From a virus, in the IMG/VR virus record IMGVR_UViG_3300028025_000091, positions 62,001 to 126,000 of that record: a DNA stretch of 64,000 bases; one strand, given 5' to 3'. The stretch's first letter is position 1. Each line of letters begins with the position of its first letter. The translations under genes and the position numbers were made by a program. The notes under the pieces were generated by a model that was given only the letters and a program-made list of their open reading frames with translations, was not told the DNA's origin and made no database searches. Shown here piece by piece: positions 11,621 to 57,608 of this stretch.

Positions 11621-11626
11621 TATTTA

Positions 11627-11640
11627 ATATTTATAAACAA
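11627..11640 (+). promoter_or_regulatory. Candidate late promoter element (ATATTTATAAACAA)
   Basis: The core ATATTTATAA is followed by ACAA instead of TAAA. It ends 7 nt before ATG 11648. The same ACAA-type ending occurs before the holin-like gene at 37983. Confidence 0.42.
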
Positions 11641-11647
11641 AATAATC

Positions 11648-18454: not shown

Positions 18455-18488
18455 TATATTACTTAAAACTTAAATATTTACCCCAATC

Positions 18489-19559
18489 ATGCCTAGTAGC
18501 TTTGTAGATTCAAGAATAAACCAAAACCTAGAAGTAGCAACAGAATACTTCAAGGCTCTTGTGTCTAAAAGGACCTATGATGCAGACAATAAATTGAATA
18601 CCGCTGCTGGGTCTTTAGGTTTTATTCCTTTTAACATGAATTTTACTATGGATGGAATAAGCGGTATTAAAATCTATAATAAATTATCCGTTGATACAAG
18701 TTTTTTACCTCCTGGATACACCAATACAATGGAATTTATAGTAACGGGAGTAGATCATAAAATACAAAACGGAGACTGGGAGACAAATATTAAAACTACT
18801 TTTATTCCAAAAACAGGTAAAATAGACAATTACATAACAAGTAGTCTTACCATCTTTGGTCAAGTTGAACAAGCACCCACTAATACACCCCCATCAGACC
18901 CAGGTGTAGTTTCAGGTACAGTCACAGATAATGATCTTTGGATATATTTAACTTGGCAACAAGGTGAGGGTGGTGCTGCAGAACATTATAAAATTGCTAA
19001 AGGAACTAGAGCTTCCTATAGTCTTGTTACAAAAGCAGCTATTAAAAACAACTGGCCTGGTAGTTTAGTAGCCTCTAATGGAGTTAAAAAATCAGATATT
19101 GATTCTTTATACACATCAAATCCTCAAAAATTATCTCAAGGTTTTATAGATGTTTGGAAAACACAATATAAATCAAGAACATCAACGGCCCCATCAAAGA
19201 TAGATAGTGCTGGATCAAATGAAGTTGGCCTTCCATACTCTACTATAAAAGCAGCATTCATTACCGCCGCTGATCCTTCAAATGGAATAGGATATTCAAA
19301 TCTTGTCAATTTTGCATATATAGAAAATTCTTTCCAAAATGATTCCGAAACTTCAAATCTATACCAAGGTATGTTCCAAATGAATAAAACTACTCCTAAA
19401 TATAAAGCAGTATTAGATAAATATAACGATGGTAAAGGACGTAATTCATCATATACTAAATATGGAACCTCAGATTTTACAGGTTTTATGAAAGATATAG
19501 TTCCATTAATAATCTCAAAATTTAAATCATTTAAAACCGCATCAGGTTACCCCAATTAA
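18489..19559 (+). CDS. Spike-like protein 2: shared hub module plus transglycosylase (SLT)-like domain
   Basis: 356 aa. Residues 1-128 repeat the shared hub module. The first ~77 nt are identical to the third paralogue, suggesting recent duplication or gene conversion. Residues about 148-230 add a small helical insert (LTWQQGEGGAAEHYKIAKG). The C-terminal domain near 250-350 has FAYIENSF (E279) followed by YQGMFQMN (292-299), the E..S and G-(L/M)-FQ-(I/M)N signature of goose-lysozyme/SLT transglycosylases. It differs in enzyme class from both neighbours. A weak AAATATTTACC element lies before it at about 18471. Confidence 0.72.
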   Translation: MPSSFVDSRINQNLEVATEYFKALVSKRTYDADNKLNTAAGSLGFIPFNMNFTMDGISGIKIYNKLSVDTSFLPPGYTNTMEFIVTGVDHKIQNGDWETNIKTTFIPKTGKIDNYITSSLTIFGQVEQAPTNTPPSDPGVVSGTVTDNDLWIYLTWQQGEGGAAEHYKIAKGTRASYSLVTKAAIKNNWPGSLVASNGVKKSDIDSLYTSNPQKLSQGFIDVWKTQYKSRTSTAPSKIDSAGSNEVGLPYSTIKAAFITAADPSNGIGYSNLVNFAYIENSFQNDSETSNLYQGMFQMNKTTPKYKAVLDKYNDGKGRNSSYTKYGTSDFTGFMKDIVPLIISKFKSFKTASGYPN

Positions 19560-19570
19560 TAAAACTTTAT

Positions 19571-20488
19571 ATGCCTAGTAGCTTTGTAGATTCAAGAATA
19601 AACCAAAACCTAGAAGTAGCAACAGAATACTTCAAGGCTCTTGTGTCTGAGAAGACTTATGATATTAATAATAAATTAAATAAATCAGCGGGTTCTATAG
19701 GTTTCATCCCCTTTAATATTAATTTTACTATGGATGGAATAAGTGGTATTCAAATTTATAATCAATTATCTATTGATACAAGTTTTTTACCCCCTGGGTA
19801 TACTGATACTCTGGATTTCATAGTAACAGGGGTAGATCATAAAGTACAAAACGGAGATTGGGAAACAAATGTAAAAGTAACCCTTATCCCTAGCACCAAT
19901 CAGATAGACAATTCTATAACAAGTAGTCTTACTATCTTTGGTCAAGTTGAACAAGCACCTGCTACCCCATCATCAGGACCAACAGTAACAGCAACAGGGG
20001 CATGGAGGATTTGGAATAAAGGTATATTCATTACATCCCCATATGAATTAAATATCCACCATTCTGGTCCTGGTCAGGTTTTTGAAATAGATCCTTCAAA
20101 TACTAGAAGTGGAAAATGGTCAAAAAATTCTGTTGGAAAATACATTTATGATGTTTGCTTATTTAGAAACGAAGGTGGAATTGAACAAAATAGACCATTT
20201 GTTCCTTCCCCAACAAATGGAACTGTAATAAGTACATCCCCTGATTCTGGTGGAAATTCATTTTTCACTATCAAGGGAGATGATGGATTAATATATGATT
20301 TTCTTCATATGGATAATTATCAAGTAGGTGTAGGTGATAAAGTAACCAAAGGTCAATTAATTGCAAGACAAAGTGATGTCATGCAAGTAAGACCAGGATA
20401 CCCAAAAGCAAATCACTTACATATGCAGATGCCAACAAAACAAGCACTAATAGATTATATTAATAGTTTATTAAATAATAGTTTCTAA
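19571..20488 (+). CDS. Spike-like protein 3: shared hub module plus M23 (LytM-like) peptidase domain
   Basis: 305 aa. Residues 1-128 are the shared hub module. After a short linker, residues about 150-300 read as an M23 endopeptidase: PFVPSPTNGTVISTS, YDFLHMD (H246), VGVGDKVTKGQLIARQ and a closing NHLHMQM (H282, H284), equivalent to the GHL..GxxVxxGQxIG..HLHFE core. The upstream zinc ligands (usual H-x-x-x-D) are less clear; NIHHSGPGQVFEID is the candidate. It would cut peptide cross-links, complementing the glycan-cleaving neighbours. Confidence 0.75.
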   Translation: MPSSFVDSRINQNLEVATEYFKALVSEKTYDINNKLNKSAGSIGFIPFNINFTMDGISGIQIYNQLSIDTSFLPPGYTDTLDFIVTGVDHKVQNGDWETNVKVTLIPSTNQIDNSITSSLTIFGQVEQAPATPSSGPTVTATGAWRIWNKGIFITSPYELNIHHSGPGQVFEIDPSNTRSGKWSKNSVGKYIYDVCLFRNEGGIEQNRPFVPSPTNGTVISTSPDSGGNSFFTIKGDDGLIYDFLHMDNYQVGVGDKVTKGQLIARQSDVMQVRPGYPKANHLHMQMPTKQALIDYINSLLNNSF

Positions 20489-26836: not shown

Positions 26837-26862
26837 AAACATGACATTTCCAATTGTTGTTA

Positions 26863-26876
26863 ATATGTATAATAAA
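26863..26876 (+). promoter_or_regulatory. Candidate late promoter variant (ATATGTATAATAAA)
   Basis: G-variant of the late element, 7 nt before ATG 26884 of the GIY-YIG gene. The same variant lies before the second GIY-YIG gene (56803) and before a fibre gene (59068). Free-standing homing endonuclease genes in T4-type phages often carry their own late promoter. Confidence 0.45.
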
Positions 26877-26883
26877 ACAACAT

Positions 26884-27507
26884 ATGGTGATTTATTTAAC
26901 AACTCATGTTATAACTGGAAAAAAATATATTGGAAAGGATGTATCAAATAGTCCTAGTTATTTTGGAAGTGGAGCTGAAATTAAACAGATAATTAAAACA
27001 GAAGGTAAAAGTAATTTAGTTAAAACTATACTTGAACATTGTGATTGTAAAGAAGATTTAGCTAAACGAGAAGAATTTTGGTTGCAAAAGTTTGATGCCG
27101 AAAACAATCCATTGTTTATGAACAGAACAAACAAAGCTTTTGGAAATAGTGGACTTTCGGATGAAACAAAATTAAAGATTAAAATATCTAGTTTAGGTAA
27201 ACCAAAATCTACCGAAGCAAGAAATAATATGAGTAAAGGAAGAACAGGTAAAACTAGAAACCAAACAAAAGTTAGATCAGATAAGGGAAAACCAAGAGGA
27301 ATTAGCCCATGGGTTTCAGAAAGTCTTAAAACTAGAAATAGAGAATCTACCTTCAAACCAGTTATACAATATGATCTAGAAGGTAATATTGTTAGAGAAT
27401 ACAAATCTGCCCAAGAAGCAAAAGATATTACAAATTTAAAAATCCAGAATGCTCTTTTAGGAACTACTAAAACTTCTGGAGGTTATATTTGGAAATACAA
27501 AGAATAA
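26884..27507 (+). CDS. GIY-YIG homing endonuclease
   Basis: About 207 aa from ATG 26884 (the longer reading to 26854 begins at TTG inside the promoter-like element). The N-terminus MVIYLTTHVITGKKYIGKD is the GIY-YIG core, followed by SYFGSGAEIKQ and an EEFWLQKFDAENNP helix. The middle has a NUMOD3-like basic repeat (SDETKLKIKISSLGKPKSTEARNNMSKG in outline) and the C-terminus a NUMOD1-like unit (VIQYDLEGNIVREY..SAQEA..GGYIWKYKE). These endonucleases cut DNA of related phages to spread their gene. It interrupts the replication operon before the helicase. Confidence 0.85.
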   Translation: MVIYLTTHVITGKKYIGKDVSNSPSYFGSGAEIKQIIKTEGKSNLVKTILEHCDCKEDLAKREEFWLQKFDAENNPLFMNRTNKAFGNSGLSDETKLKIKISSLGKPKSTEARNNMSKGRTGKTRNQTKVRSDKGKPRGISPWVSESLKTRNRESTFKPVIQYDLEGNIVREYKSAQEAKDITNLKIQNALLGTTKTSGGYIWKYKE

Positions 27508-31599: not shown

Positions 31600-31666
31600 C
31601 ATACGTATAACAGTAATAGGTTTTTCTTAATTGTTTTTTTTATTTTTAAACAAAACTAAACAAAAA

Positions 31667-33571
31667 ATGAAAAACCTTTTATTGTCCTTGTTACTTTTAA
31701 TAGTAACATTTAATGTATTTTCACAGGCACCGAATGCACCAGGAAATGGTATCTATGCCCTAATCCACCCAACTTATCAAGTTGGTCCTACTGCTACTGG
31801 TTTCACAACAGCTAATGTAACGTTGCAAAATACTACATTAACGAAATTTACAGCAACTCAATTTCGTGTGTTTTACGACAAAATTGCATTTACAAATGCT
31901 ACAGTTGCTTTAATTGGTTCTACAACTAACTTAGATATGCAATATGTAGTTAATGCTGCTAACGGTTACATTACTATTACGCTTGTATACACAGGTGCTT
32001 CTTCAACTTATACTTTAGCTGGTGGAGAAAGATTTGCAATTACATTCACACATGCTGCTCCTGCTGTATTTAACAATTTAGCTTCAATTACCAACTTAAC
32101 TTGGACAGGTGCTGCAACATTTTCACAATATGCTGCTAAACAAAATGGTATTGATACTACTTTGACATTGTACAATTATGGTGGTGTATTTACGTTACCT
32201 ACATTTACATTTGCTGGTACATTTACAAATACAACAGGTACTCCTGCTAAAAACTTACCATTAGCTTTACAAACTCGCCCTGCAGGTGGTTCCACTTGGA
32301 CACAACACTCAGCTTACTCAACTGATTTAACTGGTAACTTTACATTCACCGTTAACTTAGATACAACTTATTGGGATGTACGTTTAGCAATCCAAGGCGA
32401 TACAATGGGTATTGGAAATGCCATTTCAGCAACTGATGCACAATTGATTAATCAGTGGGTATTAGGAAACAGCACAATGTCTGGATTTGATTATTACACA
32501 GCAGATGTGAATGGCTCAAATAACGTAACAATCTCAGATGCTTATGGTGTATTTGCTAAAGTATCAGGTAACTTTACAATGTGGCCAAATAACGTTAAAA
32601 ACGTTAAATTCTTTACAGCAACCGAGTATACTACAATTAATAACTCGTCTACCAACTACACATCAACTATTGCAGGTGTCACCAACTTTACATACGAAAT
32701 CATAGCTGGACAACCTTCAACAGTAACATATTATGTTTGTGTACCGGGTGATGCGAATGGAACAGGATATCATATGGCTCGCCAAACACCAATTGAAATC
32801 TTGATTGATCCAATCCCTGGAATTCAAAATCAAATCTATAACGTAATCGATAACACAGTAGAATATGATTTTCCAACTGCACAAATTGAAGTAAACGTAC
32901 CTTATTTATCTGTACAAGCAGGAAATTTAGTTAACATTCCTGTAAAAGTGTTTACAAATGGGCAAGAATTGAATTCATTGCAATTTGGATTAAAATACGA
33001 TCCAACAGTACTTGAATTTAAAAATGCTTACTCTACTTCAAACGTAATGAAATGGTTAACATATATCAACCTAAATAACGACGAAGTTAAATGGGGTGGA
33101 TATGATGCAACAAATAATTTGAATCCATTACAAGATGGTGATGAAGTAATGACATTGCAATTTTTAGCTAAACAACCACAAAACGAATGGTTAGAAAGTC
33201 CACTTTATACAACTGATAAATTTGCAGGAGCTATCAATTCAAAAGATCTCGAAATTACACCTACAAACGGAATTTTACAAGTACTTAAATCAATCGGAGG
33301 CAAAGTAATTGACCCAAATACAATTGAAATCCAACCAAACCCAGTAACAGAAGATGTTGCAATTACATTCAACGTAACTTCAACTACAGAAGCTCATTTG
33401 GCGATTTATGATTTGCAAGGTAGAAAAATTATTACAATCCTAGACGGACAATTACCAGCAGGACAATTCACATATGTAAAAGATTTAGGTAAATTAGCTC
33501 AAGGAATGTATGTAGTTAATTTATCATTAGATAACGAAAACCCAATAAACACAAAGTTAATTAAACAATAA
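31667..33571 (+). CDS. Secreted cohesin/dockerin-like protein with T9SS type A sorting domain
   Basis: 634 aa from ATG 31667 (an upstream TTG at 31631 adds a tail that would spoil the signal peptide). Signal peptide MKNLLLSLLLLIVTFNVFSQ. Then two beta-sandwich regions. The second (FAGTFTNTTGTPAKNLPLAL onward) leads to a dockerin-like segment, GNAISATDAQLINQW and YTADVNGSNNVTISDAYG. A cohesin-like domain follows at about 395-540 (VPYLSVQAGNLVNIPVKVF, SLQFGLKYDPTVLEF). The end is a canonical Por sorting domain: IEIQPNPVTEDVAITF, HLAIYDLQGRKI, LAQGMYVVNL and KLIKQ. It heads the exported-protein cassette and shares its middle domain with the C-type lectin protein downstream. Probably displayed on the infected cell surface. 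Confidence 0.85.
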   Translation: MKNLLLSLLLLIVTFNVFSQAPNAPGNGIYALIHPTYQVGPTATGFTTANVTLQNTTLTKFTATQFRVFYDKIAFTNATVALIGSTTNLDMQYVVNAANGYITITLVYTGASSTYTLAGGERFAITFTHAAPAVFNNLASITNLTWTGAATFSQYAAKQNGIDTTLTLYNYGGVFTLPTFTFAGTFTNTTGTPAKNLPLALQTRPAGGSTWTQHSAYSTDLTGNFTFTVNLDTTYWDVRLAIQGDTMGIGNAISATDAQLINQWVLGNSTMSGFDYYTADVNGSNNVTISDAYGVFAKVSGNFTMWPNNVKNVKFFTATEYTTINNSSTNYTSTIAGVTNFTYEIIAGQPSTVTYYVCVPGDANGTGYHMARQTPIEILIDPIPGIQNQIYNVIDNTVEYDFPTAQIEVNVPYLSVQAGNLVNIPVKVFTNGQELNSLQFGLKYDPTVLEFKNAYSTSNVMKWLTYINLNNDEVKWGGYDATNNLNPLQDGDEVMTLQFLAKQPQNEWLESPLYTTDKFAGAINSKDLEITPTNGILQVLKSIGGKVIDPNTIEIQPNPVTEDVAITFNVTSTTEAHLAIYDLQGRKIITILDGQLPAGQFTYVKDLGKLAQGMYVVNLSLDNENPINTKLIKQ

Positions 33572-33574
33572 GCT

Positions 33575-33898
33575 ATGTCAGAAACAGAAACAAACGACGG
33601 CACTTGGTCAGGCCTTAAAAAAACGATCGTTGGAACATTGTCAACAGTAATCACTGGAGGTGGTGTATGGTTAGGAACAACTCTTTATGGTGGTGGACAT
33701 AATGAAGAGCCTAAAGAAGAAACCAAAACAGAACAACCAGCAGCTGCTCCGGTAATTGTAAACGTTCAACAAAACCAAGAAAACAAACAAAAAGTTGAAA
33801 ATGGTGGGGGAACAATAATCCACGAACGAGTAATTGAAAAACCAGTAGTTACTCAACCAACTACACCAACACCAAAACCTCAAGAGGAATCATGGTAA
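33575..33898 (+). CDS. Membrane-anchored Pro/Gln-rich protein, unknown function
   Basis: 107 aa. A polar N-terminus (MSETETNDGTWSGLKK) is followed by one transmembrane or weakly hydrophobic segment (TIVGTLSTVITGGGVWLGTTLYG) and an acidic/Gln/Pro-rich tail (KPVVTQPTTPTPKPQEESW) that would extend across the periplasm. It starts 3 nt after the T9SS-type gene and overlaps the CsgG-like lipoprotein gene by 7 nt. The layout resembles inner-membrane spanins, but the hydrophobic segment is Gly-rich and the partner is not a typical outer-membrane spanin. Role uncertain. Confidence 0.6.
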   Translation: MSETETNDGTWSGLKKTIVGTLSTVITGGGVWLGTTLYGGGHNEEPKEETKTEQPAAAPVIVNVQQNQENKQKVENGGGTIIHERVIEKPVVTQPTTPTPKPQEESW

Positions 33899-34620
33899 AA
33901 TTTTTATTTATATTATTGACGCTAGGGTTGTTTTCTTGCAAAACAGCCCAAGCTCAAGGTGGTATAGGTACTGTTAAAACAGAACAATATCAAGCGGATT
34001 TTGAAAAAAAACAGTCACTTGATGTTGTATCCGATTATGATGGTTCAATTCAAATTCCCATCCAATTACTTAAAATTGGAATCAATGAGGAATTATATGA
34101 AATGTACCCTGAACTTAAAGACAAACGTGTTGGTTTAGGTGTAACAAACATTGTGATCGAATATCTTGAATATACTAATCGCTTTACGTTTACTGAGGAA
34201 AAAGAAGACATTAAGCAACGTATGATTGCTCAAGATAAAGCATCTGATAAAGGCATTTCATCAAATAAAATAGAGGTAAAAGGAAATGTAGTACTTGCCA
34301 AATATTTCGTTTATATTGAAGTCTATGATTTCAGTGTATCAGAAGACGAGATAGTTAAAGTAAATGGTAAACAAACCACAACACAAACAACACGTTTAGG
34401 ATTGCAGATTAAATTCGTAGATGCTGAAACCGGCCAAATCATTGTAGGTTCTGGTTTAGGCGAAGCAAACACGGTAAAAATGTCTTCTATATTAGAAGAT
34501 ATTACTGATGAAGTAAAATTCAACCAATCCACCATAGGTACTTCAACTAAAAAAGCATTAGAAACCGCATCATCCCGAGTTGTATCACGATTAATTAGTA
34601 AAGGTGTATTCAAGAATTGA
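33892..34620 (+). CDS. CsgG-like outer-membrane lipoprotein
   Basis: 242 aa. A lipobox ends at C16 (LGLFSC) after MVKFLFILLT. The body follows the CsgG/HfaB pattern: GLGVTNIVIEYLEYTNRF then a Glu-rich EEKEDIKQRM helix, IEVKGNVVLAKYFVYIEVYDFSV (the A-x-Y-x-V-x-G-x-I strand), TRLGLQIKFVDAETGQIIVGSGLGEA (the L-R-x-V-D-x-x-TG strand) and a C-terminal helix with ALETASSRVVSRLI. CsgG forms the curli export pore in the outer membrane. CsgG-like genes are known in some marine T4-like phages. It is in the middle of the exported-protein cassette, overlapping both neighbours. Confidence 0.68.
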   Translation: MVKFLFILLTLGLFSCKTAQAQGGIGTVKTEQYQADFEKKQSLDVVSDYDGSIQIPIQLLKIGINEELYEMYPELKDKRVGLGVTNIVIEYLEYTNRFTFTEEKEDIKQRMIAQDKASDKGISSNKIEVKGNVVLAKYFVYIEVYDFSVSEDEIVKVNGKQTTTQTTRLGLQIKFVDAETGQIIVGSGLGEANTVKMSSILEDITDEVKFNQSTIGTSTKKALETASSRVVSRLISKGVFKN

Positions 34621-36113
34621 AAAAATACTTGTTTATATTATTTCTCCTGTGTACATTTAATATAAGCGCACAGACGTATAATTATAGTTATACTGATCCT
34701 TGTACTGGAAATTTAAAAACAATAATAGTTCCAATAAACGGTAATGTTACTGTTTCTTATTACGGTGAATTAGGATCATTTAATGCAAATGATTTTACAA
34801 ACGGAAATTTTGAGTCGTGGGCAAGTGGAATTTTTAACCAATATGGTCAAGATTCTCCATGTTCTCAAATTGTGGGGTTAGGAACTGCGGTTAATGTGAC
34901 ACAAAGTACAACTTTAAATGTTATGGGAATTTTAAATTCCCTATCAACAATAGCAAGTTTAACAGGTGGAGCAACAAATGTTTTAGGAGGAGCAGTTGGA
35001 TCAGTATCCAATTCTTCCGGAGATGGAGAAAGTAATAGTAACAATAACAAAAATAACAATGGAAACAATAATCCCAGTAATAATCCTAGTAACCCTAGTG
35101 GGGGTGGGAGTAGCATCCCTAATCAGCCTAATCAAAACCCACAAACTCAAAGTGGAGGAACACAAGAAGGAACAGGAACAAGCAGTAGCGAAACTAGTTC
35201 AAACCCTGAAGGAAGCGGGAGTACCGGTTCTACCTCATCCCCTGAAGGAGGAGGAAGTGAAGGAACAACCACAAGTGGTGAAAATGGAGGAACCAGTAGC
35301 GACCCAGGTAGTGGAAGCACCAGTAGTACTTCAGGAAACGGTAACGGTGGGCAAACCAGTCCGAACCAAGAAGGCTCGCAAACCACGTCCGAAAAAACAG
35401 AAGGCAAAACAAATATAACTGCCGGAGCTTCAACAACAGCTAAATCAACTCCAACCTCTAAAGAGGGAGGAAAACCAAGTGTAGTCGCGTCAAGCGACTT
35501 TGTTGGTTTTAACTTTAGAAACTCAGATGTTAAGACTGGATTAAAAGCAACAGGTGGTTATACAGCCATGAAATGGGATGGGAAACGTAGTTGGGGCGCA
35601 TTAGCCGATTATACTTCAGCTTTAAAAGGCCCAAACATTACATGCTTTTATGCTTGGATGAGACCAAAATCAGTAATTTTACTTTCAGGCACTGCAACTA
35701 TTGGATTTGAAGGAAATAAATCCTTATATGGCACTCTAGCATTTGGACAAATGTTCAAATTTAAAAAAGCACCTACCCTTAAAGTAGTTTATATGGCCAC
35801 AGCATCATACGGTCAAGTTTATAGAGTATCATTTTTGGGTACAGCAGTAATTGGTGGTGTAATGTATGATGTTAAAGTGGGTAAACGCATAGATATTAAA
35901 TTAATGAATTTGATGGTTTATGCTCCATATGTTTCATATTATAATGATGTTTTATTAAAGTCACCCTATGTAATGCTTCCTAGCATTGGAACAAACATAG
36001 GTATAACCAAGAAATTTAAATTTAACATAAACGCAGGAGGTGCTTGGGATTTAAAAACCGCAGCTCTAAACTATACAGTAACATGTGGTACAAGAATATT
36101 GGTAGGACAATAA
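34617..36113 (+). CDS. Secreted protein with low-complexity linker and putative outer-membrane beta-barrel domain
   Basis: 498 aa starting at TTG 34617, which overlaps the TGA of the CsgG-like gene (TTGA). No nearby ATG would keep the signal peptide MKKYLFILFLLCTFNISAQ. Residues about 20-135 contain a Cys-containing domain (YTDPCTGNLKTI.., DSPCSQIVG). Then follows ~150 residues of Asn/Gly/Ser/Thr repeats (about 137-285). The C-terminal ~205 residues consist of alternating amphipathic strands (DVKTGLKATGGYTAMKWDG, SVILLSGTATIGFEG, GQVYRVSFLGTAVIGGV) ending in an aliphatic strand, as in 8- to 12-stranded OMPs. The gene could be a surface adhesin or a component working with the CsgG-like pore. 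No curli repeat is seen. Confidence 0.6.
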   Translation: MKKYLFILFLLCTFNISAQTYNYSYTDPCTGNLKTIIVPINGNVTVSYYGELGSFNANDFTNGNFESWASGIFNQYGQDSPCSQIVGLGTAVNVTQSTTLNVMGILNSLSTIASLTGGATNVLGGAVGSVSNSSGDGESNSNNNKNNNGNNNPSNNPSNPSGGGSSIPNQPNQNPQTQSGGTQEGTGTSSSETSSNPEGSGSTGSTSSPEGGGSEGTTTSGENGGTSSDPGSGSTSSTSGNGNGGQTSPNQEGSQTTSEKTEGKTNITAGASTTAKSTPTSKEGGKPSVVASSDFVGFNFRNSDVKTGLKATGGYTAMKWDGKRSWGALADYTSALKGPNITCFYAWMRPKSVILLSGTATIGFEGNKSLYGTLAFGQMFKFKKAPTLKVVYMATASYGQVYRVSFLGTAVIGGVMYDVKVGKRIDIKLMNLMVYAPYVSYYNDVLLKSPYVMLPSIGTNIGITKKFKFNINAGGAWDLKTAALNYTVTCGTRILVGQ

Positions 36114-37081
36114 CATTACTCGTATTATTTTCATGTAACTTGTTTTCCCAAACATTTACATATTCCGGTTACATCAGAAATGCTGATGGTACTGGAGCTG
36201 TAAATGTACCTGTTAAATTATACAAACGTACTACTCCGACATTAACTGGCTTTACATCTCAACAAAACTATAACGGACATTCATATTATCGCTCAACTGG
36301 AAATGCTTTTTGGACAGATGCAAGAACTGCTTGTTCAAACATGGGTGGTTATCTAGTAACTGTAACTTCAGCTGCTGAAAATAATTTTATATTCGGCTTA
36401 TGGCCTTCTGGTTGGATTGGTTTAACAGATGAGGTAAACGAAGGTGTGTGGAGATGGGTAACTGGAGAAGCTTACTCATATTCTTCATGGAACCCAGGCG
36501 AACCAAATAATGCGGGTAATGAAGATTATATTCAATTTGTTGGTGGGGGTAAATGGAATGATTTACCTAACAATCAATCATTACCTTATGTTATCGAATT
36601 TGATTATATTGTCACATATACTGCTTGGACAGTACAACAAACCGTTTATACAAATTCTTTAGGATATTATTCATTTTCCCAACCAACAAACCCTTCAGTT
36701 GAATGGTATATACAATTAGATGCTCCTACACCAGTAACATCTCACACTATAACAGATATTAGAGGTGTAACAGATAATATACTAGGCAATACAGTGCGAA
36801 AAAGCATACATTGGATACAATATGATACAAACAACGATGGAAAAATAAGCGTTTCAGATGCAATATATATCAATAGAAAACAAAACTTATTAGCAACATT
36901 CCCCTATACATCTAGAATATTTACTCCAACACAATATACCTCTTTAACAACGGGTACAACTGATTTACGCTCAACTATACCAGGTGTAAGTTCAATTACA
37001 ATTAACACTCCTGTAAGTGGTACCACAACAGGAAATTATTATTTAATCGCTCCTGGGTATAAGGGGCAAGTAACTTATTGA
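36083..37081 (+). CDS. Secreted C-type lectin protein with dockerin-like repeat
   Basis: 332 aa from ATG 36083, overlapping the previous gene by 31 nt. Signal sequence MWYKNIGRTITLLVLFSCNLFSQ. A beta-sandwich domain (YSGYIRNADGTGAVNVPVKLY) is interrupted at about residue 55 by a C-type lectin domain (about 62-175). The lectin carries NGHSYYRS, WTDARTAC, WIGLTDEVNEGVWRW, the EPN motif (140-142) and WND (158-160), the Ca2+- and sugar-binding signatures of mannose/GlcNAc-type lectins. The sandwich resumes at TAWTVQQTVYT, followed by dockerin-like YDTNNDGKISVSDAIYINRK. The flanking parts match the middle of the T9SS type A protein at 31667. No T9SS sorting domain is present. Likely sugar-binding surface or virion-associated protein. 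Confidence 0.8.
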   Translation: MWYKNIGRTITLLVLFSCNLFSQTFTYSGYIRNADGTGAVNVPVKLYKRTTPTLTGFTSQQNYNGHSYYRSTGNAFWTDARTACSNMGGYLVTVTSAAENNFIFGLWPSGWIGLTDEVNEGVWRWVTGEAYSYSSWNPGEPNNAGNEDYIQFVGGGKWNDLPNNQSLPYVIEFDYIVTYTAWTVQQTVYTNSLGYYSFSQPTNPSVEWYIQLDAPTPVTSHTITDIRGVTDNILGNTVRKSIHWIQYDTNNDGKISVSDAIYINRKQNLLATFPYTSRIFTPTQYTSLTTGTTDLRSTIPGVSSITINTPVSGTTTGNYYLIAPGYKGQVTY

Positions 37082-37082
37082 C

Positions 37083-37532
37083 ATGAAACAGCTATTTTTA
37101 TCGTTATTTTTATTCCCGTTTATGCTAGTTGCACAACAATGTGTTTATGTAGATACAGTGTTTGTAACCGCAAAAGTAAGAGAATTAGGCACACGTGATA
37201 TTCGTTTTGGTATCAAACAAATTGCTGAAGATGCATTATCTGAAAAATATTGTTTGGATGAAACCGGTTTACCTATTAAAATTGAAATATACTATTTTGG
37301 TATTCCAAAAAATACCATTCGAGTGATGGGGGTAGAACGTTCAAACGTAATCACTCAAGTTGGAGTACGTTTACACTACAATAACTGTAAATATGAAGGT
37401 ATAGGCGAATCCGAAACCGAAATTACAGCAGTTTTAATCGAGGTAAAAGAAGGTACAATCCCATTTGAAAAAATGACTGTATCTAATTCCTTAAAAAAAG
37501 CCATAAATGAAGCAGTTAGTAAAATGCCTTAG
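37083..37532 (+). CDS. Secreted small protein of the exported cassette, unknown
   Basis: 149 aa. Signal peptide MKQLFLSLFLFPFMLVAQQ, starting 1 nt after the lectin stop. The mature part has alternating strands and helices (VTAKVRELGTRDIRFGIKQIAEDAL, PIKIEIYYFGI, NVITQVGVRLHYNNCKYEGIGESET) and a helix near the end (NSLKKAINEAVSKM). The strand-strand-helix finish resembles the C-terminal half of the CsgG-like protein upstream, so a partner or distant relative is conceivable. Not recognised as CsgE or CsgF. Confidence 0.6.
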   Translation: MKQLFLSLFLFPFMLVAQQCVYVDTVFVTAKVRELGTRDIRFGIKQIAEDALSEKYCLDETGLPIKIEIYYFGIPKNTIRVMGVERSNVITQVGVRLHYNNCKYEGIGESETEITAVLIEVKEGTIPFEKMTVSNSLKKAINEAVSKMP

Positions 37533-37959
37533 TATATTCTTCCCACTTATACTTTCAGCTCAAATTAAAATAGATGATGTTGGAGATGGATGGAAAAATA
37601 AAGTTGAACAAGCAATAGAGGTTGTAAAACAATACGATTCGGAAAAGTATACTTTACTTACAGAAAATTGTAACCATATCAGCTATTCTCTTTTACCTTT
37701 TTCTACTACCGAAAGTAAAAATACAATCTTAATTTCTCAAAAAGAAATTTTAAAAGGAAATGTAAACGATATAGCTGCTATTTTAGTTCATGAATCTTTA
37801 CATTTATATTTTTTAAAAAACAACATAATCCTCCCCGAAAATGAGGAAGAAATATTGTGTTACACGTATGAGCTTGAATTGCTTTTTAAAATACCTGATG
37901 TAGAACCGTGGTTAATAGACCATGCAAAAAAACAAATTGAATTTTATACAAACCCTTAA
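37507..37959 (+). CDS. Secreted HExxH metalloprotease-like protein
   Basis: 150 aa from ATG 37507, overlapping the previous gene by 26 nt. Signal peptide MKQLVKCLSIFFPLILSAQ. A short zincin-like core follows: ILVHESLHLYF with H95-E96-x-x-H99, and a downstream Glu-rich NEEEILCYTYELEL helix that could give the third ligand. The mature part is only ~130 residues, smaller than most secreted metalloproteases, and has no pro-domain. It ends the exported-protein cassette directly before the late element of the lysis genes. Could process cassette proteins or envelope proteins. Catalysis is inferred from motif only. Confidence 0.6.
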   Translation: MKQLVKCLSIFFPLILSAQIKIDDVGDGWKNKVEQAIEVVKQYDSEKYTLLTENCNHISYSLLPFSTTESKNTILISQKEILKGNVNDIAAILVHESLHLYFLKNNIILPENEEEILCYTYELELLFKIPDVEPWLIDHAKKQIEFYTNP

Positions 37960-37982: not shown

Positions 37983-38231
37983 ATGAAAAAATTTTTTAAT
38001 CAATTGTTTGACGACAATAACTCAATCAACGAAAAAGCAGTAGTTGGTTTTATTGCATTTATTATGCTTTGCATATCATTAGCAGTAGATTTAATTACTG
38101 GAGCATGGGGTAAAGAATTATTAATTAACAAATTCATTTTTGATGGATTTATGGTAATTGTATTAGGGTCATTCGGAATTGCTTCCGTTGACAAGTGGAT
38201 TAACAAGAAAAAAGATAAAGACGAAGAGTAA
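37983..38231 (+). CDS. Holin-like membrane protein
   Basis: 82 aa with two hydrophobic segments: AVVGFIAFIMLCISLAVDLI (about 19-38) and FDGFMVIVLGSFGIASV (about 53-69). The N-terminus is charged and short and the C-terminus is strongly basic/acidic (KWINKKKDKDEE). Two-pass size and adjacency to the GH19 endolysin (ATG overlaps by 1 nt) fit a class II-type holin. No specific family is confirmed. Confidence 0.72.
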   Translation: MKKFFNQLFDDNNSINEKAVVGFIAFIMLCISLAVDLITGAWGKELLINKFIFDGFMVIVLGSFGIASVDKWINKKKDKDEE

Positions 38232-38842
38232 TGAGTTTAAAAAGTTTACAAGAAAAGATCGGAGTTACCGCGGATGGTGCTTTTGGTCCCGGAACGTTGA
38301 AAGCCGCAATGGCATTTTACAAACTAACCCCAGTACGTGCAGCACATTTCTTTGCACAAACAGCACATGAAACTGGTGAGTATAAATTGTTTAGTGAAAA
38401 CCTAAACTATTCAGCAGCAGGTTTGCAAGGTACTTTTGGAAAATATTTTCCTGGTACACTAGAAGAATCTTACGCTCGTAACCCTGAAAAAATTGCTAAC
38501 AGAGTTTATGCAGATAGAATGGGTAACGGAAACGAAGCTTCAGGTGACGGATGGAAATACAGAGGTCGTGGTGCATTACAATTAACTGGAAAAGCTAATT
38601 ATAAAGCATTTGCTGATTATTTGAAAAAACCTGAAATTATGGAAACACCTGATTTAGTAGCATCAACATATGCTTTTGAATCAGCAATGTTCTTCTTTGA
38701 CAAAAACAAATTATGGTCAATTTGTGATCAAGGTGTGAATGAAGCAGCTATTTTGGCTTTAACAAAACGCATCAATGGTGGAACAAATGGTTTAGACCAT
38801 AGAAAATTATTAACTAACAAATATTACGGATACGTAAAATAA
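38231..38842 (+). CDS. Endolysin, GH19 chitinase-type glycoside hydrolase
   Basis: 203 aa. The first ~30 residues look like part of a peptidoglycan-binding unit (LQEKIGVTADGAFGPGTLKA). The rest is a GH19 lysozyme-like domain: AAHFFAQTAHETGEYKLFSE with E47 as the likely acid, NRVYADRMGNG, GWKYRGRGALQLTGKANY (the conserved FRGRGxxQxTG core) and a final RINGGTNGLDHR. It hydrolyses the glycan of peptidoglycan at lysis. No signal peptide, so it depends on the holin. Starts within the last base of the holin stop. Confidence 0.9.
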   Translation: MSLKSLQEKIGVTADGAFGPGTLKAAMAFYKLTPVRAAHFFAQTAHETGEYKLFSENLNYSAAGLQGTFGKYFPGTLEESYARNPEKIANRVYADRMGNGNEASGDGWKYRGRGALQLTGKANYKAFADYLKKPEIMETPDLVASTYAFESAMFFFDKNKLWSICDQGVNEAAILALTKRINGGTNGLDHRKLLTNKYYGYVK

Positions 38843-41123: not shown

Positions 41124-44100
41124 ATGAGCACAATAATAACAAGAAATAGCGCAACATCAGGAAGTACTCCTTCTTCACTTGTACAAGGTGAATTAGCAAT
41201 CAATGTAACTGATGGTCGTTTATTCTATGGTTCGGGTTCTGGAAATATTGTAAAAGAATTTACTGGAAGTGCTAGTGGTGGAACAATTGATACTGGTTCA
41301 TTTGTAACGACTTCATCATTTAATGCTTATACTGGTTCTAATACGTCTCAATTCGCAGGAACTGCGTCATATGCTACAACAGCATCGTATGCTTTAAACG
41401 CTTTAAGTGCTTCTTATGCCTTAACAGCATCATTTATTACTGCTTCAAATGTTTATGGACCTTTTGGTTCAAACAGTATTGTTTCTGCATCATATGCTGC
41501 TACTGCTTCATATGCAACTACAACCTCAGATATTTTAGTATTAGTTAAAAACCAAACTGGGGACACTATTGCAAAAGGTGTTGTAGTTCGAATTACAGGT
41601 TCAAACACATCTAGTGATATCCCTCGTATTGTAACAGCATCTTATGAAAATGATAACAATTCTGCAAATACTTTAGGTATTACCAACCAATCCATTGCAA
41701 ATGGAGACGATGGTTATGTAATGACCGAAGGAATCTTACTTGGAATTGATACAAATGCATTTATTTCAGGTCAGTTAATTTATCTAGGTGCAACAGGATC
41801 CATTATAGGATATGCACCTCAAGCACCTTTACATAATGTTCGTTTAGGTGAAGTTGTTCGTCAACAATCTAATAATGGTTCAATTTATGTTCGTATAGAC
41901 AATGGATATGAATTAGAAGAATTACATGATGTACGAATCACTAGCGCTTCTTCAGGTGACTTATTAATCCGTTCAGCTAGTGTTTGGATTAATTCCAAAC
42001 AACTTTCAGGTTCATATGGCTTAACAGGTAGTTTAACTGCTACTTCATTTACAGGAAGTTTATTTGGAACTTCAAGTTGGGCAAATAATGCTCAAACGTC
42101 TCAAACTTCTAGTTATGTTTTAAATGCAATAAGTGCTTCATATTCTCAAACAGCATCATATCTAAATACACTTAATCAAGATTTAACATTTAATGGAAAT
42201 CTAACATTAAATGGTACTGCATCAATCTCATTTTTAAATGTGGCTTATGAATCTGCTTCTGTAATATACTCAAGTGGTTCAAACCAATTTGGAGATGCTT
42301 CAAACGACGTTCAAACGCTTTGGGGAACAGTTGATGTAAAAACAGGTCCTGTTTTAGTAACTGGATCTTTAAATGTATCTGGAGGTATAACAGGTAGTTT
42401 GCTTGGAACTTCTTCATATGCTGTTCAATCATTGTCTAGTTCATATGCTCAAACAGCTTCATATGTTCAAAACGCTCAAACAGCTTCTTATGTTTTAAAT
42501 GCTGTTTCAAGTTCATATGCATCAAATGCTTTAAGTGCTTCTTATGCTGTAACCTCTTCATATTCAAATAATTCAACTAGTGCTTCATATGCAATTAATT
42601 CTACAACAGCACAAACTGCTAGTTATGTTTTAAATGCAGTAAGCGCCTCTTATGCTACAACGGCATCATATTATGGAGGAAGTGTTATAAGTGCTTCATA
42701 TGCTGCAACTGCTTCATATGTTCAAAACGCTCAAACGGCATCGTATGTTTTAAATGCTATTTCAAGTTCATATGCATTAAGTGCTTCTTATTCTACAACT
42801 TCATCATATTCAAATAATTCAACTAGTGCGTCATATGCAATCAATGCTACAACATCACAAACCGCTAGTTATGTTTTAAATGCAATAAGTGCTTCATATG
42901 CTACTCAAGCATTATCAAGTTCATTTTCTTCAACTGCTTCTTATTATGGTGGAAATGTTGTAAGTGCCTCATATGCAACAACCGCTTCATATGTACAAAA
43001 TGCTATAAGTGCCTCATATGCTACAAACGCATCTAGTGCTTCTGTCTTAGACCTATACAGTATTACTTCCAATACAAATAGCTACTTACTCTTTTCAAAT
43101 ACAATAGCTGCTACGGGACAAATTGTAGGAGGGGATAATGATTTACGATATAACTCTAGTACAAATACATTAACAGCAGTTAATATTTCTGCATCAAGTT
43201 TAACAGGTTCTTTATTTGGAACTGCTTCATATGCTACACAAGCTATAACCGCTCAAACAGCTTCATACGTTATAAACTCTATAAGTTCTTCATACGCTCA
43301 GACAGCTTCGTATGTTTTAAATGCAATAAGTTCTTCATATACTACTCAAGCATTGTCAAGTTCGTATTCTATAACTGCTTCATACTCAACGTTAGCACAA
43401 ACTGCATCTTACGTTCTACAAGCTGTAAGTGCATCATATGCTGCAACTGCTTCATATGTTCAAACAGCACAAACAGCATCTTACGTTCAAAATGCTCAAA
43501 CAGCATCTTATGTTTTAAATGCCATAAGCGCTTCATATGCTTTAAATGCTACAACAGCACAAACTGCATCTTACGTTCAAAATGCTCAAACCGCTTCATA
43601 CGTTTTAAATGCTCAAACCGCTTCATATATTCAAACGGCTCAAACCGCATCATATGTTTTAAACGCTGTAAGTGCATCATATGTTACTCAAGCATTATCA
43701 AGTTCATTTGCATCAACTGCTTCATATGTTAATCCACTTAACCAAAATGTATTAATTACAGGTAGTGCTACAATTGGATCATCTAGTTTAGGTCCATTTG
43801 AAAATACTATAACTTTAGGAGCACGTGATAGTGCAAATGAAGGTGGTCAAATAGGATTCAATGCACCTGGAGGAACATATACATCTGCCTCATTTATTGA
43901 CAACTGGTCAAATTACGCCCGCATATTACGTGGAACAAATGCAAGTAGTACCGGATTGGTAGCTCAGTGGAACCTTCACACTCTTCAAATGCAGTTACCT
44001 GCATACACTAATGCATCATCATTTCCAGGAACCGCTACAGCTAATTTAGCAATTGACTCAGGTGGTAACATTATAACAGTATCAACAACCGGAGGATCAG

Positions 44101-45422
44101 TTTTCCCTTATGTTGGAGACGCAGTTATAACAGGTTCATTAACTACAACTGGTATAATTTATGCTCAACCAAATGGAGGTATGTACTTCCAAGGTGGAGA
44201 TGATGCTGCCTTATATGACATCAACGTAGCAAATACTATGGGTATCTATGGTATGCAAACCGTTACAGAAGGAGCAATAAAGTTAGGAAGTAATGGCCCT
44301 GTACTCTATGGCTCAGGCAGTAGACTTGGATTAGGCACAACAACTCCTACTTCAGCCTCTTTAACTGTTAATGGTAACGTGTGGGCAAACTCATTTACTG
44401 GATCATTACAAGGAACATCCTCATATGCAACTCAAGCGTTAAGTGCTTCATATGCTTTAAGTGCTACAACTGCAAATACTGCTTCATATGTTCAAAATGC
44501 TCAAACAGCATCTTATGTTCAAACAGCACAAACTGCTTCATATGTTTTAAATGCTATATCAAGCTCATATGCTTTAAGTGCCTCATTTTCAGTATCTTCA
44601 TCTAGAGCAGTAAGTGCTTCATTTGCAACTACTGCATCTTATTATGGAGGAAGTGTGATTAGTGCTTCATATGCAGCTACCGCTTCATATGTTAACCCAT
44701 TAATACAAAATGTAATAGTTACCGGTTCATTAGATATAAGTGGTTCATTTATTGCATATGATGAAAGTAATGTTAAAGCAATACAAGCAAATTTATCAAA
44801 ACGTTCATTATTTGATACAAGTGCTGTTGTATCTGTAAATTGGAGTGGTAGAGGTTTATACACTCCATCTTCTATATTAGCTATAGATTGGAGCGATAAC
44901 AATTACTTAGATTCAAACGTTTACCAAAGAGATTATAAATCTGCAACTACACAAAATGCAGTATCAAATACAATTAATAATGCTTATTCTTCATATCTAG
45001 GAGACATAATTGAAGTAGATGGTGTAAATACAATTATCAATGGGACTGTAAATGATGGTATGTTAGTTTATTTGGATACTGATGCTACTTGGTATCCTGT
45101 TAATCAAAGTAGTACTACGGCTACTAAAATGATAGGAATAGCATGTAACGTTGCAGGTCCTACAGGATTTATACTCCTAGAAGGACATGTTGTTATTGAT
45201 GATTCTGGAGCTAATAGACCAACCGTAACAGGAGCAGACCATGGACTTCCAGTTTATATTGAAGATAGTACAACCAATGGTAGAATGTCTACAACGTTAC
45301 CAACAACTGCTGGTGGAAATAATGTAATACGCGTAGTAGGACATTGTTATTGGAATAACACAGGAACATCCTCCCAATGGATGATGAAATTTAGACCATC
45401 AAATGATTGGATCACAATATAA
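41124..45422 (+). CDS. Giant ASYA-repeat fibre protein
   Basis: 1,432 aa. N-terminus: a GELAINVTDGRLFYGSGSG unit, typical of fibre heads that follow a trimerisation region. Dozens of ASYA/ASYV-x-x-A units then fill about residues 70-900 and 1100-1190 (pattern: (S/T)ASY(A/V)-x-x-A-(I/V/Q)). Three spacer domains interrupt them: a beta-rich domain (DILVLVKNQTGDTIAKGVVVRITG), one near 860-1000 with a TLGARDSANEGGQIGFN core, and a C-terminal unit (GMLVYLDTDATWYPV, GFILLEGHVVID). The C-terminus ends WMMKFRPSNDWITI. Reads as a long rod with repeat segments and small globular heads, for host attachment. The DNA repeats are near-identical in places. Confidence 0.8.
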   Translation: MSTIITRNSATSGSTPSSLVQGELAINVTDGRLFYGSGSGNIVKEFTGSASGGTIDTGSFVTTSSFNAYTGSNTSQFAGTASYATTASYALNALSASYALTASFITASNVYGPFGSNSIVSASYAATASYATTTSDILVLVKNQTGDTIAKGVVVRITGSNTSSDIPRIVTASYENDNNSANTLGITNQSIANGDDGYVMTEGILLGIDTNAFISGQLIYLGATGSIIGYAPQAPLHNVRLGEVVRQQSNNGSIYVRIDNGYELEELHDVRITSASSGDLLIRSASVWINSKQLSGSYGLTGSLTATSFTGSLFGTSSWANNAQTSQTSSYVLNAISASYSQTASYLNTLNQDLTFNGNLTLNGTASISFLNVAYESASVIYSSGSNQFGDASNDVQTLWGTVDVKTGPVLVTGSLNVSGGITGSLLGTSSYAVQSLSSSYAQTASYVQNAQTASYVLNAVSSSYASNALSASYAVTSSYSNNSTSASYAINSTTAQTASYVLNAVSASYATTASYYGGSVISASYAATASYVQNAQTASYVLNAISSSYALSASYSTTSSYSNNSTSASYAINATTSQTASYVLNAISASYATQALSSSFSSTASYYGGNVVSASYATTASYVQNAISASYATNASSASVLDLYSITSNTNSYLLFSNTIAATGQIVGGDNDLRYNSSTNTLTAVNISASSLTGSLFGTASYATQAITAQTASYVINSISSSYAQTASYVLNAISSSYTTQALSSSYSITASYSTLAQTASYVLQAVSASYAATASYVQTAQTASYVQNAQTASYVLNAISASYALNATTAQTASYVQNAQTASYVLNAQTASYIQTAQTASYVLNAVSASYVTQALSSSFASTASYVNPLNQNVLITGSATIGSSSLGPFENTITLGARDSANEGGQIGFNAPGGTYTSASFIDNWSNYARILRGTNASSTGLVAQWNLHTLQMQLPAYTNASSFPGTATANLAIDSGGNIITVSTTGGSVFPYVGDAVITGSLTTTGIIYAQPNGGMYFQGGDDAALYDINVANTMGIYGMQTVTEGAIKLGSNGPVLYGSGSRLGLGTTTPTSASLTVNGNVWANSFTGSLQGTSSYATQALSASYALSATTANTASYVQNAQTASYVQTAQTASYVLNAISSSYALSASFSVSSSRAVSASFATTASYYGGSVISASYAATASYVNPLIQNVIVTGSLDISGSFIAYDESNVKAIQANLSKRSLFDTSAVVSVNWSGRGLYTPSSILAIDWSDNNYLDSNVYQRDYKSATTQNAVSNTINNAYSSYLGDIIEVDGVNTIINGTVNDGMLVYLDTDATWYPVNQSSTTATKMIGIACNVAGPTGFILLEGHVVIDDSGANRPTVTGADHGLPVYIEDSTTNGRMSTTLPTTAGGNNVIRVVGHCYWNNTGTSSQWMMKFRPSNDWITI
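42400..43740 (+). repeat. Tandem coding repeats of the ASYA type
   Basis: Short imperfect units, typically CAAAC-GCTTCATATGTT-TTAAATGCT and related, repeat through this stretch of the giant fibre gene. Units of about 24-60 nt are nearly identical and probably expand or contract by recombination. They also occur at lower density in the rest of the gene and in its neighbours (39577, 40846, 45432). Long-read or assembly errors are likely here. Confidence 0.75.
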
Positions 45423-45926: not shown

Positions 45927-48900
45927 ATGTTTACACCATTTGCCTTCATACAACCTATAACAACAGCTATCCCGATTACTCCCTCAACACAGTATTTGTT
46001 GATTGGAGGATCGTTTACTTTATATAATGTTCCCGTATTAAACCGAATGGTTAAAATAGATGCAAATGGTGATATAGATAATTCGTTTAATATAGGAACA
46101 GGTTTTGGTAATGTTCCATTTGATATCAAACAACAACCCGATGGAAAATATGTTGTAGGAGGAAACTTTACTTCATATAGTGGTTCTAGTGTAAATTATT
46201 TAACACGTTTAAATCATAATGGTACTAGAGATACTTCACTTAATATAGGAACTGGATTCAATTCTGCTCTATATACTGTTTCTCCCCAATCAGATAATTC
46301 GAATATAGTAGTAGGAGCATTTACTTCATATAATGGTTCTGCAGGGAAAAATTATATAGCAAAAATTACCCCTTCGGGTAGCCTAGATGCAACTTTCAAT
46401 ACGGGAATAGGCTTTAATAATAGTAGCACATATACTATAATTACCCAAGCAGACGGTAAACCTATAATTGGTGGAATATTTACCCAATATAGTAGTTCTA
46501 ATAATTATATAACCAGAACCGATTTATCAGGCTCATACAACGCAGGCCCGGGAACGGGATTTAATACTGGTGTTGGATTTAATAATGTTGTCTATACATA
46601 TGCTACACAATCCGATGGAAAAATCATTTTAGGAGGATCATTCACCCAATACAGTGGTTCCTCAACTAATACTACAAGATTAATTCGATTAAATACTAAT
46701 GGTACCCAAGATACTTCATTTGTAACCGGAGTTGGATTTAATACAGATGTTTATACAATTAAAGTACAAACAGATGGAAAAATAATTGTAGGTGGACTTT
46801 TTACTACTTATAGTGGTTCAACTGTAAACTACATTACAAGACTTAATTCAAGTGGTTCCATAGACACTACATTTAATACAGGAACAGCTGCTTCTTCAAC
46901 GGTATGGGATAGTCATATCCAATCAGATGGAAAAATTGTTATAGTAGGTGGATTTGGTACATATAGTGGATCTTCAAACCCAGGTATTGTAAGAATTAAT
47001 AATAGTGGATCTAAAGATGCTACTTTTAATGTAGGAGCAGGAACTGTTGGTGCTGCATATTCAATAAACCCTACTGGGTCTCAATATATTGTAGGAGGAA
47101 ACTTTACTTCATATAGTGGTTCTTCTAATAATTACATAGTTCGTATAAATTCTGATGGTACTAAAGATACATCATTTAATATTGGTACAGGATTTAGTAG
47201 CACAGTAAATGATACTACAATAGAACCTAATGGAAAAATTTTAGCAATAGGACAATTTACAACATATAGTGGTTCCTCAACAAACACCACTAGAATAATC
47301 AGATTAAACCCAAATGGTACCCAAGACACAACATTTGTAACAGGAACGGGATTGAATCAAGTTACCCCCAACGGAAACCACCTTTCAATAGAATCAGATG
47401 GTAAAATATATGTTGGATCTCAAATGGCTACTTATAGTGGGTCAACTGTTAACTTTTTTGCTAGGATTAATCCTAGTGGAACTTTAGACACTACATTTAA
47501 TGGATATACATCCAACATTGCTTATGGAATAGGATTTAATAATGTTATAAGAACATTATTTATATCTGGGTCTAATATCTATTTTGGAGGAAGTTACATA
47601 GCCTATAAACCAACAAACCGAATTATTAGATTAAACACTAATGGTACTCAAGATACTACATTTTCTCTTGGAGAAGGAATTACTGGTGGTCAAAATACTA
47701 TTTATTCCTTAGTTTCTCAATCTGATGGAAAAATTATAGCAGTAGGAGCATTTTCTACTTATCAAGGATTCTCCCAAAATAACATTACTAGACTTAATAC
47801 AGATGGTACTAGAGATACAACATTTAATATAGGTACAGGATTTAATAATACTGCAACCTCAGCAACTGTACAACCAGATGGAAAAATAGTTATTATGGGA
47901 CTTTTTACTACATATAGTGGTTCCTCTTCAAACCGTATAATTCGCCTTAACCCTAGTGGTACTTTAGATACAACATTTAATATTGGAGCTGGAATTGATA
48001 CCGTAAGCAGCGCAGTTGGAGCTTCTAAGATTATTTCCACCCCAGATAACAAAGTTTATGCTACTACAGTAGGTATGGCTAGTTATAGTGGTTCATCTAT
48101 TGGTAATCTTGTTAAAATTAATTCAAGTGGTTCTATAGATACCACATTTGGTACTACTTCTTCATTTTCTTTTAATAGTACTGGAAGGGGATTTTATGCT
48201 GCATCTAGCCCTGGTGGATACACATTGATTCTTAGTGGTTCAAGCGTAATAGTAGGAGGACAATTCTTAACATATAAAAATACAGCATTTCTGTATGGTG
48301 GCATGATAGATACAACAGGTGCCATTTCTTCTTCATTTAACATAGGGGCAGGATTTAGTACTACAGTTCGAACATGGGTTACTCAATCTGATGGTAAAAT
48401 TTTAGCAGCCGGAGCATTTACCACATATAGTGGTTCCTCAACTAATACAACACGAATTATTCGTTTAAATAGAAATGGTACCCGAGATACTTCATTTGTA
48501 ATAGGAACTGGATTCAACAGTACTGTAACAGATCTTAGAATACAATCTGATGGAAAAATATTAGCAATAGGACAATTCACAACATATAGTGGATCCTCAA
48601 CTAGTGGAATAGTTCGTTTAAACATAAGCGGTACTCGTGATACTACATTTAATGTAGGAACAGGTTTTACATTAGCACCAGATGCTAGACATTGTAAAAT
48701 TCAATCAGATGGAAAAGTTGTAGTAGTAGGTAACTTTACTACATATAGTGGCTCTACACAACAATATATTACTCGAATTAATACTGATGGTACTAGAGAT
48801 ACAACCTTTAATATAGGCACAGGATTTAATAACACTGCAGAAGCAGTGATTCTTCAACCTGATGGAAAATTAATTGTAGGAGGACAATTTACAACATATA

Positions 48901-55959: not shown

Positions 55960-55993
55960 TTGTATTATAGACTGGGAATTATACCAAAAAGTT

Positions 55994-57596: not shown

Positions 57597-57608
57597 AAAA
57601 CAAGAACA
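57595..57608 (+). promoter_or_regulatory. Leader variant AAAAAACAAGAACA before ATG 57609
   Basis: One base differs from the exact element (AAAAAAC for AAACAAC). It abuts ATG 57609 and overlaps the stop of the previous gene. Confidence 0.58.

Follow-up and report, generated by a model that had tools for sequence, protein, structure and literature searches.

The analysed window, a 64,000-nucleotide stretch covering bases 62001-126000 of the 173.8-kb IMG/VR virus record IMGVR_UViG_3300028025_000091, contains a gene (gene A) whose product is predicted to carry two cohesin folds, together with a dockerin-like segment and a T9SS type A sorting domain. We put the probability that gene A anchors a surface-display module encoded by the phage at roughly 0.5. 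In such a module, the phage probably uses the T9SS of its host to place the scaffold on the surface of the infected cell, an exchangeable sugar-binding protein may clip onto this scaffold, and cell stickiness, or the range of viruses that attach, is possibly altered.

Domain organization of gene A

The open frame of gene A extends over 31631-33571 with a mechanical start at TTG 31631, and translation from ATG 31667 yields the signal-peptide-like N-terminus MKNLLLSLLLLIVTFNVFSQ expected from the first-pass annotation. A model of the protein was built with AlphaFold2 (AF2) from 37 aligned relatives (mean pLDDT 63.9), and its structural neighbours were scored by VIA-align. The following segments are distinguished.

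31667..33571, + strand: gene A, the scaffold, 634 aa, ordered as signal peptide, Coh1, TTR-like, dockerin-like, X, Coh2 and T9SS type A C-terminal domain (CTD)
31667..31726, + strand: predicted Sec signal peptide, with a sequence typical of Bacteroidota
31739..32206, + strand: Coh1, N-terminal cohesin fold, aa 25-180, from AF2 and VIA-align
32207..32401, + strand: TTR/carboxypeptidase-regulatory-like segment, aa 181-245, also present in the passenger protein
32402..32596, + strand: dockerin-like segment, aa 246-310, with a degenerate loop 1 and a loop 2 reading DVNGSNNVTISD
32597..32782, + strand: X segment, aa 311-372, following the dockerin, ending in PGDANGTG and common to the passenger
32879..33271, + strand: Coh2, cohesin, aa 405-535, from PF00963 and 2jh2_C (Z 10.7)
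33323..33568, + strand: T9SS type A C-terminal sorting domain, aa 553-634, from PF18962, TIGR04183 and the fold

The C-terminal sorting domain is the most clearly recognized part of gene A. It exceeds the cut-offs of both Por_Secre_tail PF18962 (38 bits against 27, E 2.1e-9) and TIGR04183 (35.7 bits against 23, E 6.3e-9), in agreement with the complete type A Por domain proposed earlier, and the motifs quoted for the protein, including PNPVTED, LAIYDLQGRKI and KLIKQ, are all present. In the model, this domain resembles the CTD of PorU (6za2_A, Z 10.5) and that of mirolase (8qb1_A, Z 9.9). A chance match is ruled out, since gene A alone matches TIGR04183 in the 173.8-kb record and every Por-positive relative retains the domain. 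Within the scaffold family, Por is found in 36 of 37 rows, the exception being gp014 of the Flavobacterium phage vB_FspM_immuto_2-6A (hereafter immuto), where Por is split off. The type A domain and the cohesin are retained in relatives as low as about 26-50% identity, and every folded domain shows purifying selection when close relatives are compared (dN/dS about 0.04-0.25). Among the pairs of this dN/dS analysis, the most divergent one shows no such constraint on the signal peptide. A hydrophobic core is seen at the N-terminus of all 78 relatives and a cleavage-like motif in 71, as scored by our own heuristic and not by SignalP.

Coh1 is well modelled. Its best neighbour is 3ul4_A (Z 12.7, 2.9 A over 136 residues), and the top rows are nearly all cohesins; Pfam gives no match for this domain. 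Coh2 extends over about 372-526 in the AF2 model and is also recognized by sequence, as Cohesin PF00963 scores 24.0-24.3 bits, i.e. at the cut-off of 24.1 (E about 4e-5), and matches 32 of 37 family rows (best 1.3e-11). The profile searches suggested by the first-pass annotation, for TIGR04183 and cohesin families, therefore back both its type A and its cohesin-like assignment. The second cohesin was absent from that annotation, as were the CsgG-fold partner described below and the cohesin label carried by a protein of a cultured relative.

The dockerin-like segment is supported as a family feature, so that domain searches did not refute the first-pass annotation. Taken alone, gene A stays below the cut-off of Dockerin_1 (PF00404; 17.1 bits against 22.9, E 0.007), whereas 23 of 37 family rows reach E values of 0.1 or better (best 7.8e-5) and the best PDB sequence match of gene A is the dockerin 4uyp_B (residues 242-309, E 0.0056). 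The second loop is EF-like in 77 of 79 scaffolds and in 62 of 70 passengers; the first calcium loop appears degenerate by eye in both gene A and the passenger. In the AF2 model, the stretch 248-312 has pLDDT below 50, and no fold was obtained. The preceding TTR-like segment matches Pfam CarboxypepD_reg in five of the 37 scaffold relatives (best 0.00049).

The conserved module and its lectin passenger

Gene A is followed on the same strand by a set of genes that includes the passenger, a lectin with a dockerin-like tail.

33575..33898, + strand: gene B, a small protein, hydrophobic in a single stretch near its N-terminus and rich in Pro/Gln in its tail, overlapping gene C by 7 nt
33892..34620, + strand: gene C, CsgG-fold protein with a signal peptide / lipobox-like start
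34617..36113, + strand: gene D, putative exported protein with a low-complexity middle and a possible beta-barrel C-terminus (by eye only)
36083..37081, + strand: passenger, with signal peptide, C-type lectin (EPN, WND) and TTR-dockerin-X tail; mechanical ORF from TTG 36044
36311..36592, + strand: C-type lectin domain of the passenger (PF00059, 61.6 bits, cut-off 22.6)
36704..37078, + strand: dockerin-like and X module of the passenger, loop DTNNDGKISVSD, A4
37083..37532, + strand: gene E, putative exported protein, weakly related to gene C
37507..37959, + strand: gene F, putative exported HExxH protein (VHESLHLYF), found in 35/85 loci
37983..38842, + strand: holin-like small membrane protein and GH19-type endolysin (PF00182, 3.1e-6), beside the module

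With a profile of gene C, relatives were detected in 217 viral stretches, and 80 loci from this set were retained. The module comprises the scaffold, a small membrane protein, the CsgG-fold lipoprotein, a putative outer-membrane protein, the dockerin passenger and a second CsgG-like protein. The scaffold lies upstream of gene C in all 76 distinct contigs with room for it (79 including three re-fetched), and the dockerin passenger is present in all 67 contigs with room (70 counting repeats); the misses are all cuts at contig ends, save immuto with its split scaffold. Many of these contigs are near-copies; at a divergence above about 10%, 36 scaffolds are distinct. Genes B (80/85 loci), D (85/85) and E are near-universal; neither Pfam nor NCBIfam gives a match for B or D. 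The gene E cluster occurs in 69 loci, and gene C profiles match E relatives at up to 9e-6. Between the passenger and gene E, 29 loci encode a DNA/RNA non-specific endonuclease whose start resembles a signal peptide, for example at 11191-11772 of locus L014 (PF01223, 2.2e-26); in immuto, an annotated NUC1 adjoins the lectin gene.

Gene C is assigned by its fold. Its AF2 model, a monomer (pLDDT 64.9), retrieves CsgG in all of the top 17 Foldseek matches (E 2.1e-7, prob 1.0) and aligns with the CsgFG complex 6l7a_A at VIA Z 12.1, followed by the lipoprotein folds PelC, LptE and HpaA at Z 8-10. By sequence, an identity as CsgG is ruled out: Pfam, PHROGs and NCBIfam give no match, the CsgG profile (PF03783) finds nothing over the whole record at E up to 1, and hhalign against six Flavobacterium CsgG proteins reaches a probability of 0.25%. 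Because this profile comparison fails, the protein is termed CsgG-fold and not CsgG. A host origin of gene C was also rejected, as a scan of GTDB genomes returned two MAG contigs, both with the module and more likely binned phage contigs. These contigs (L091 and L092) are labelled Bacteroidetes / Flavobacterium and probably represent phage contigs binned with host genomes. The 7-nt overlap of B and C, the hydrophobic stretch in B and the lipobox-like start of C recall inner/outer spanin genes; gene C of immuto is without the lipobox cysteine.

The passenger contains a C-type lectin domain (Lectin_C E = 1.4e-16) whose profile matches mannose-binding lectins in the PDB. In mannose-type C-type lectins, the EPN and WND motifs supply the ligands for sugar and calcium, and both motifs are found in 59 of 70 passengers. 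No T9SS signal was found in the passenger. Its TTR-dockerin-X part shares 25% identity with that of gene A, and an HMM of this part (TDX) built solely from scaffolds matches passenger tails at 1e-17 to 1e-27. A4, to which the window sequence itself belongs, matches the passenger module in its own record at 4.0e-57, and Dockerin_1 matches 9 of 38 passengers at 0.01. The heads are more variable. Among 38 passengers, 30 carry a C-type lectin, with a LamG insert in 10, four carry GEVED and four Ig_7, and in the gene C tree sister modules bear different heads in at least five places. Such pairs include lectin in L013 and GEVED in L015, lectin in L035 and another head in L036, L024 and L037, and lectin in L039 and L041 against lectin with LamG in L042 and L045. 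Heads thus change among close relatives, and the dockerin module is kept. Head swapping of this kind would be expected from a plug-in arrangement; simple recombination of adhesins would give the same pattern. That the head is exchangeable is consistent with an arms race over glycan specificity.

A second form of the scaffold is found in immuto and in 19 further contigs, which constitute one clade in the gene C tree. Here two genes one base apart encode Coh1-TTR-Doc-X and Coh2-Por, each with its own signal peptide in immuto, and only the second piece carries the T9SS tail. Any anchoring of the first piece would therefore need a non-covalent link, which a cohesin-dockerin bond would supply. One genome with a split scaffold (L112, 549-2825) has two dockerin passengers side by side, of 422 and 334 aa. 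In a third clade, composed of 29 contigs and one Flavobacterium MAG contig, the A-like protein contains a cohesin and lacks the Por tail. All 14 Por-positive large records contain one above-cut-off TIGR04183 match and the scaffold, accompanied by one or more passenger dockerins (a single record has two passengers), whereas all 14 Por-negative large records, mostly fragments, show the scaffold dockerin only. This association of Por and passenger is suggestive only, as it represents a single contrast between clades and not many independent events. The Por-negative clade retains A-like, B, C and E, which indicates that T9SS is dispensable for the central function of the module and that a CsgG-fold core can exist in its absence. 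The middle of the Por-negative scaffold has a weak hhalign link to the dockerin module (probability 18%, P 0.0013).

Proposed assembly and alternative explanations

Signal-peptide-like N-termini are seen across the family in A, C, D, the passenger, E and F, and these six proteins are predicted to cross the inner membrane via Sec. Judging from its sorting domain, A would then pass the outer membrane through the host T9SS and remain attached to the surface. The passenger, which shares the TTR-dockerin-X tail of A, would use its dockerin to bind one of the cohesins of A. It would do so either before export, riding along with the scaffold, or once it has crossed by some other path, and the CsgG-fold protein C is a candidate for providing that path. 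Chains of scaffolds, joined through the scaffold's own dockerin, might form as well. In the last and least certain step, the displayed calcium-dependent lectin would bind glycans and remodel the surface of the infected cell, so that receptors may be masked against other phages, or cells glued to neighbours or particles. The cohesin-dockerin surface complex suggested in the first-pass annotation is supported indirectly by the shared tail module, the fixed gene order, the swapped heads, the split scaffold and the co-occurrence with the T9SS tail. The fuller proposal credits large phages of Bacteroidota with an entire plug-in scaffold, made up of a T9SS-anchored double cohesin, exchangeable dockerin-tagged adhesins and an outer-membrane component of CsgG fold, that would give the infected host cell a new coat against competing phages or for altered adhesion. 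It is more tentative, and we consider the odds to lie somewhat against it.

A first alternative dispenses with docking. Gene A and the lectin could be independent exported adhesins, with the cohesin- and dockerin-like domains serving just as beta-sandwich and EF-hand building blocks. The degenerate first calcium loop and the dockerin that did not fold in the model are in line with this explanation, and passenger dockerins are about two thirds different between scaffolds that are 77% identical, a divergence that argues against a tightly co-evolved interface. Independent adhesins, however, leave unexplained why a passenger with the same tail accompanies every Por-positive scaffold, why heads are swapped onto a common tail and what would anchor the Coh1-Doc piece of the split scaffold. 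We regard independent export without docking as doubtful, though it deserves serious weight. It is far less probable that A and the lectin decorate the virion and aid sticking to host glycans or mucus. Phage virions do carry Ig-like and lectin domains, yet the signal-peptide-like N-termini and the conserved T9SS domain of this family indicate export and not virion assembly in the cytoplasm, and the module lies outside the tail genes.

A further alternative is that the module serves lysis or egress, with the CsgG-fold protein and the small membrane proteins forming an envelope channel that times or aids lysis and with A and the passenger as accessories. An envelope channel of this type was proposed to act in lysis for the CsgG of phage Melnitz (PMC9004378). 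Besides the fold of gene C, the spanin-like overlap of B and C agrees with such a function, relatives of the window's holin-like protein sit directly before gene C in many loci, and the endolysin follows the module in the window. It is because these holin-like and endolysin genes are close by that lysis is kept under consideration. Their existence as separate genes also speaks against it. Pore formation by C is hypothetical, and a lysis module would leave both the T9SS tail and the variable lectins unexplained; we judge this function quite unlikely.

If the surface-display reading is true, phages of the Flavobacterium world use the host T9SS to rebuild the infected cell surface. Their scaffold would be modular, so that its sugar-binding head could be exchanged with the remainder unchanged. 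For a widespread phage group, the module would then offer a specific candidate for how superinfection exclusion or adhesion of infected cells is brought about, and a single gene set would connect the puzzle of phage T9SS cargo with that of phage CsgG-fold proteins. The reading is testable in immuto, a cultured member with the split form of the module that was grown on Flavobacterium sp. LMO8.

Relation to known systems and other features of the window

In immuto (NC_055915, Immutovirus), gp013-gp018 form the same module as in the window, composed of the C-type lectin, Coh1-TTR-Doc-X, cohesin-Por, B, the CsgG-fold protein, D and E. It differs in that the scaffold is divided into two genes and the lectin is located upstream; identity to the window is 31% for A and 70% for C. 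The record labels gp013 'lectin C-type' and gp015 'cohesin domain-containing', and the T9SS tail and dockerin are unannotated. The paper on phages of LMO8 does not mention immuto (PMC7077304). The relationship to immuto and the T9SS signals suggest a Flavobacterium-type host for the phage of the window. SprA is present in all 21 Flavobacterium genomes sampled, and CsgG proper in six of them.

Phage proteins with T9SS type A sorting domains are shared with Cryophage, whose phage-encoded type A cargo varies between relatives and was suggested to act in competition or superinfection exclusion (Bellas et al. 2020, PMC7468147). That cargo consists of endoglucanase, GH39 and PA14 proteins, and the passages covered make no mention of cohesin, dockerin or a CsgG-fold partner (PMC7468147). 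Type A cargo has also been noted near the BACON genes of crAss-like phages (PMC6949934). The CsgG/CsgF proteins of pelagimyophages and Melnitz have the CsgG fold, occur without curli subunits and are of debated function (PMC7029224, PMC9004378). They are recognizable by sequence, are accompanied by CsgF and belong to phages of Proteobacteria, whereas gene C matches by fold only and is linked to a T9SS scaffold.

Cohesin-dockerin systems, both cellulosomal and non-cellulosomal, resemble the module of the window in combining a cohesin scaffold with exchangeable functional modules that bear a dockerin or, in the window, a dockerin-like segment. The module of the window differs from them in being phage-encoded and T9SS-anchored by prediction and in having one good calcium loop, and no enzymes or CBMs were found in it. 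Membership in a cellulosome is ruled out by Pfam scans, which detect no glycoside hydrolase or CBM in scaffolds or passengers. With the type A surface proteins of Bacteroidota, gene A shares the signal peptide and the C-terminal Por domain; unlike these, it is phage-encoded and linked to a dockerin-tagged lectin. No phage-encoded cohesin or dockerin was found in the open literature, a search of incomplete coverage that is not proof of absence, nor was any report found that joins T9SS cargo, a CsgG-fold protein and cohesin in one phage module. Phage T9SS cargo, phage CsgG and the cohesin label of immuto are each known separately, and their combination is new as far as we found.

The presence of both T9SS types in one phage, pointed out at first pass, is borne out by a type B protein at 5694-7892 (TIGR04131 37.1 bits, cut-off 35; CHU_C 48.8 bits, cut-off 27) in addition to gene A. 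A functional pair of type A and type B is ruled out, as the type B protein is sporadic and found in just 2 of 15 related records. It is located inside the tail gene cluster and also contains PKD_6 and a weak SprB repeat. By eye, its N-terminal domain (GPFNIGF...FFG..YIGSNGW) is like the passenger heads of L036, L037 and L091.

Several other genes of the window were recorded. Three tandem tail paralogues at 17474-20488 share an N-terminal part (MPSSFVDSRINQNLEVATEYF) and differ in their C-terminal domains; these resemble distinct cell-wall enzymes, with the third peptidase M23-like by eye. The 1432-aa protein at 41124-45422 is highly repetitive (ASYVLNAxSASYA-type repeats) and is probably a tail fibre, and the 1145-aa protein at 45927-49364 is composed of about 20 delta-60 / DUF5122 beta-propeller repeats (E 8.6e-208). 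QueC-, QueD- and QueE-like genes at 55111-58848, which make 7-deazaguanine DNA modification probable, are also present in immuto, where DpdA is annotated too. Finally, two GIY-YIG-type homing endonuclease-like genes are seen by eye at 26854-27507 and 56815-57396.
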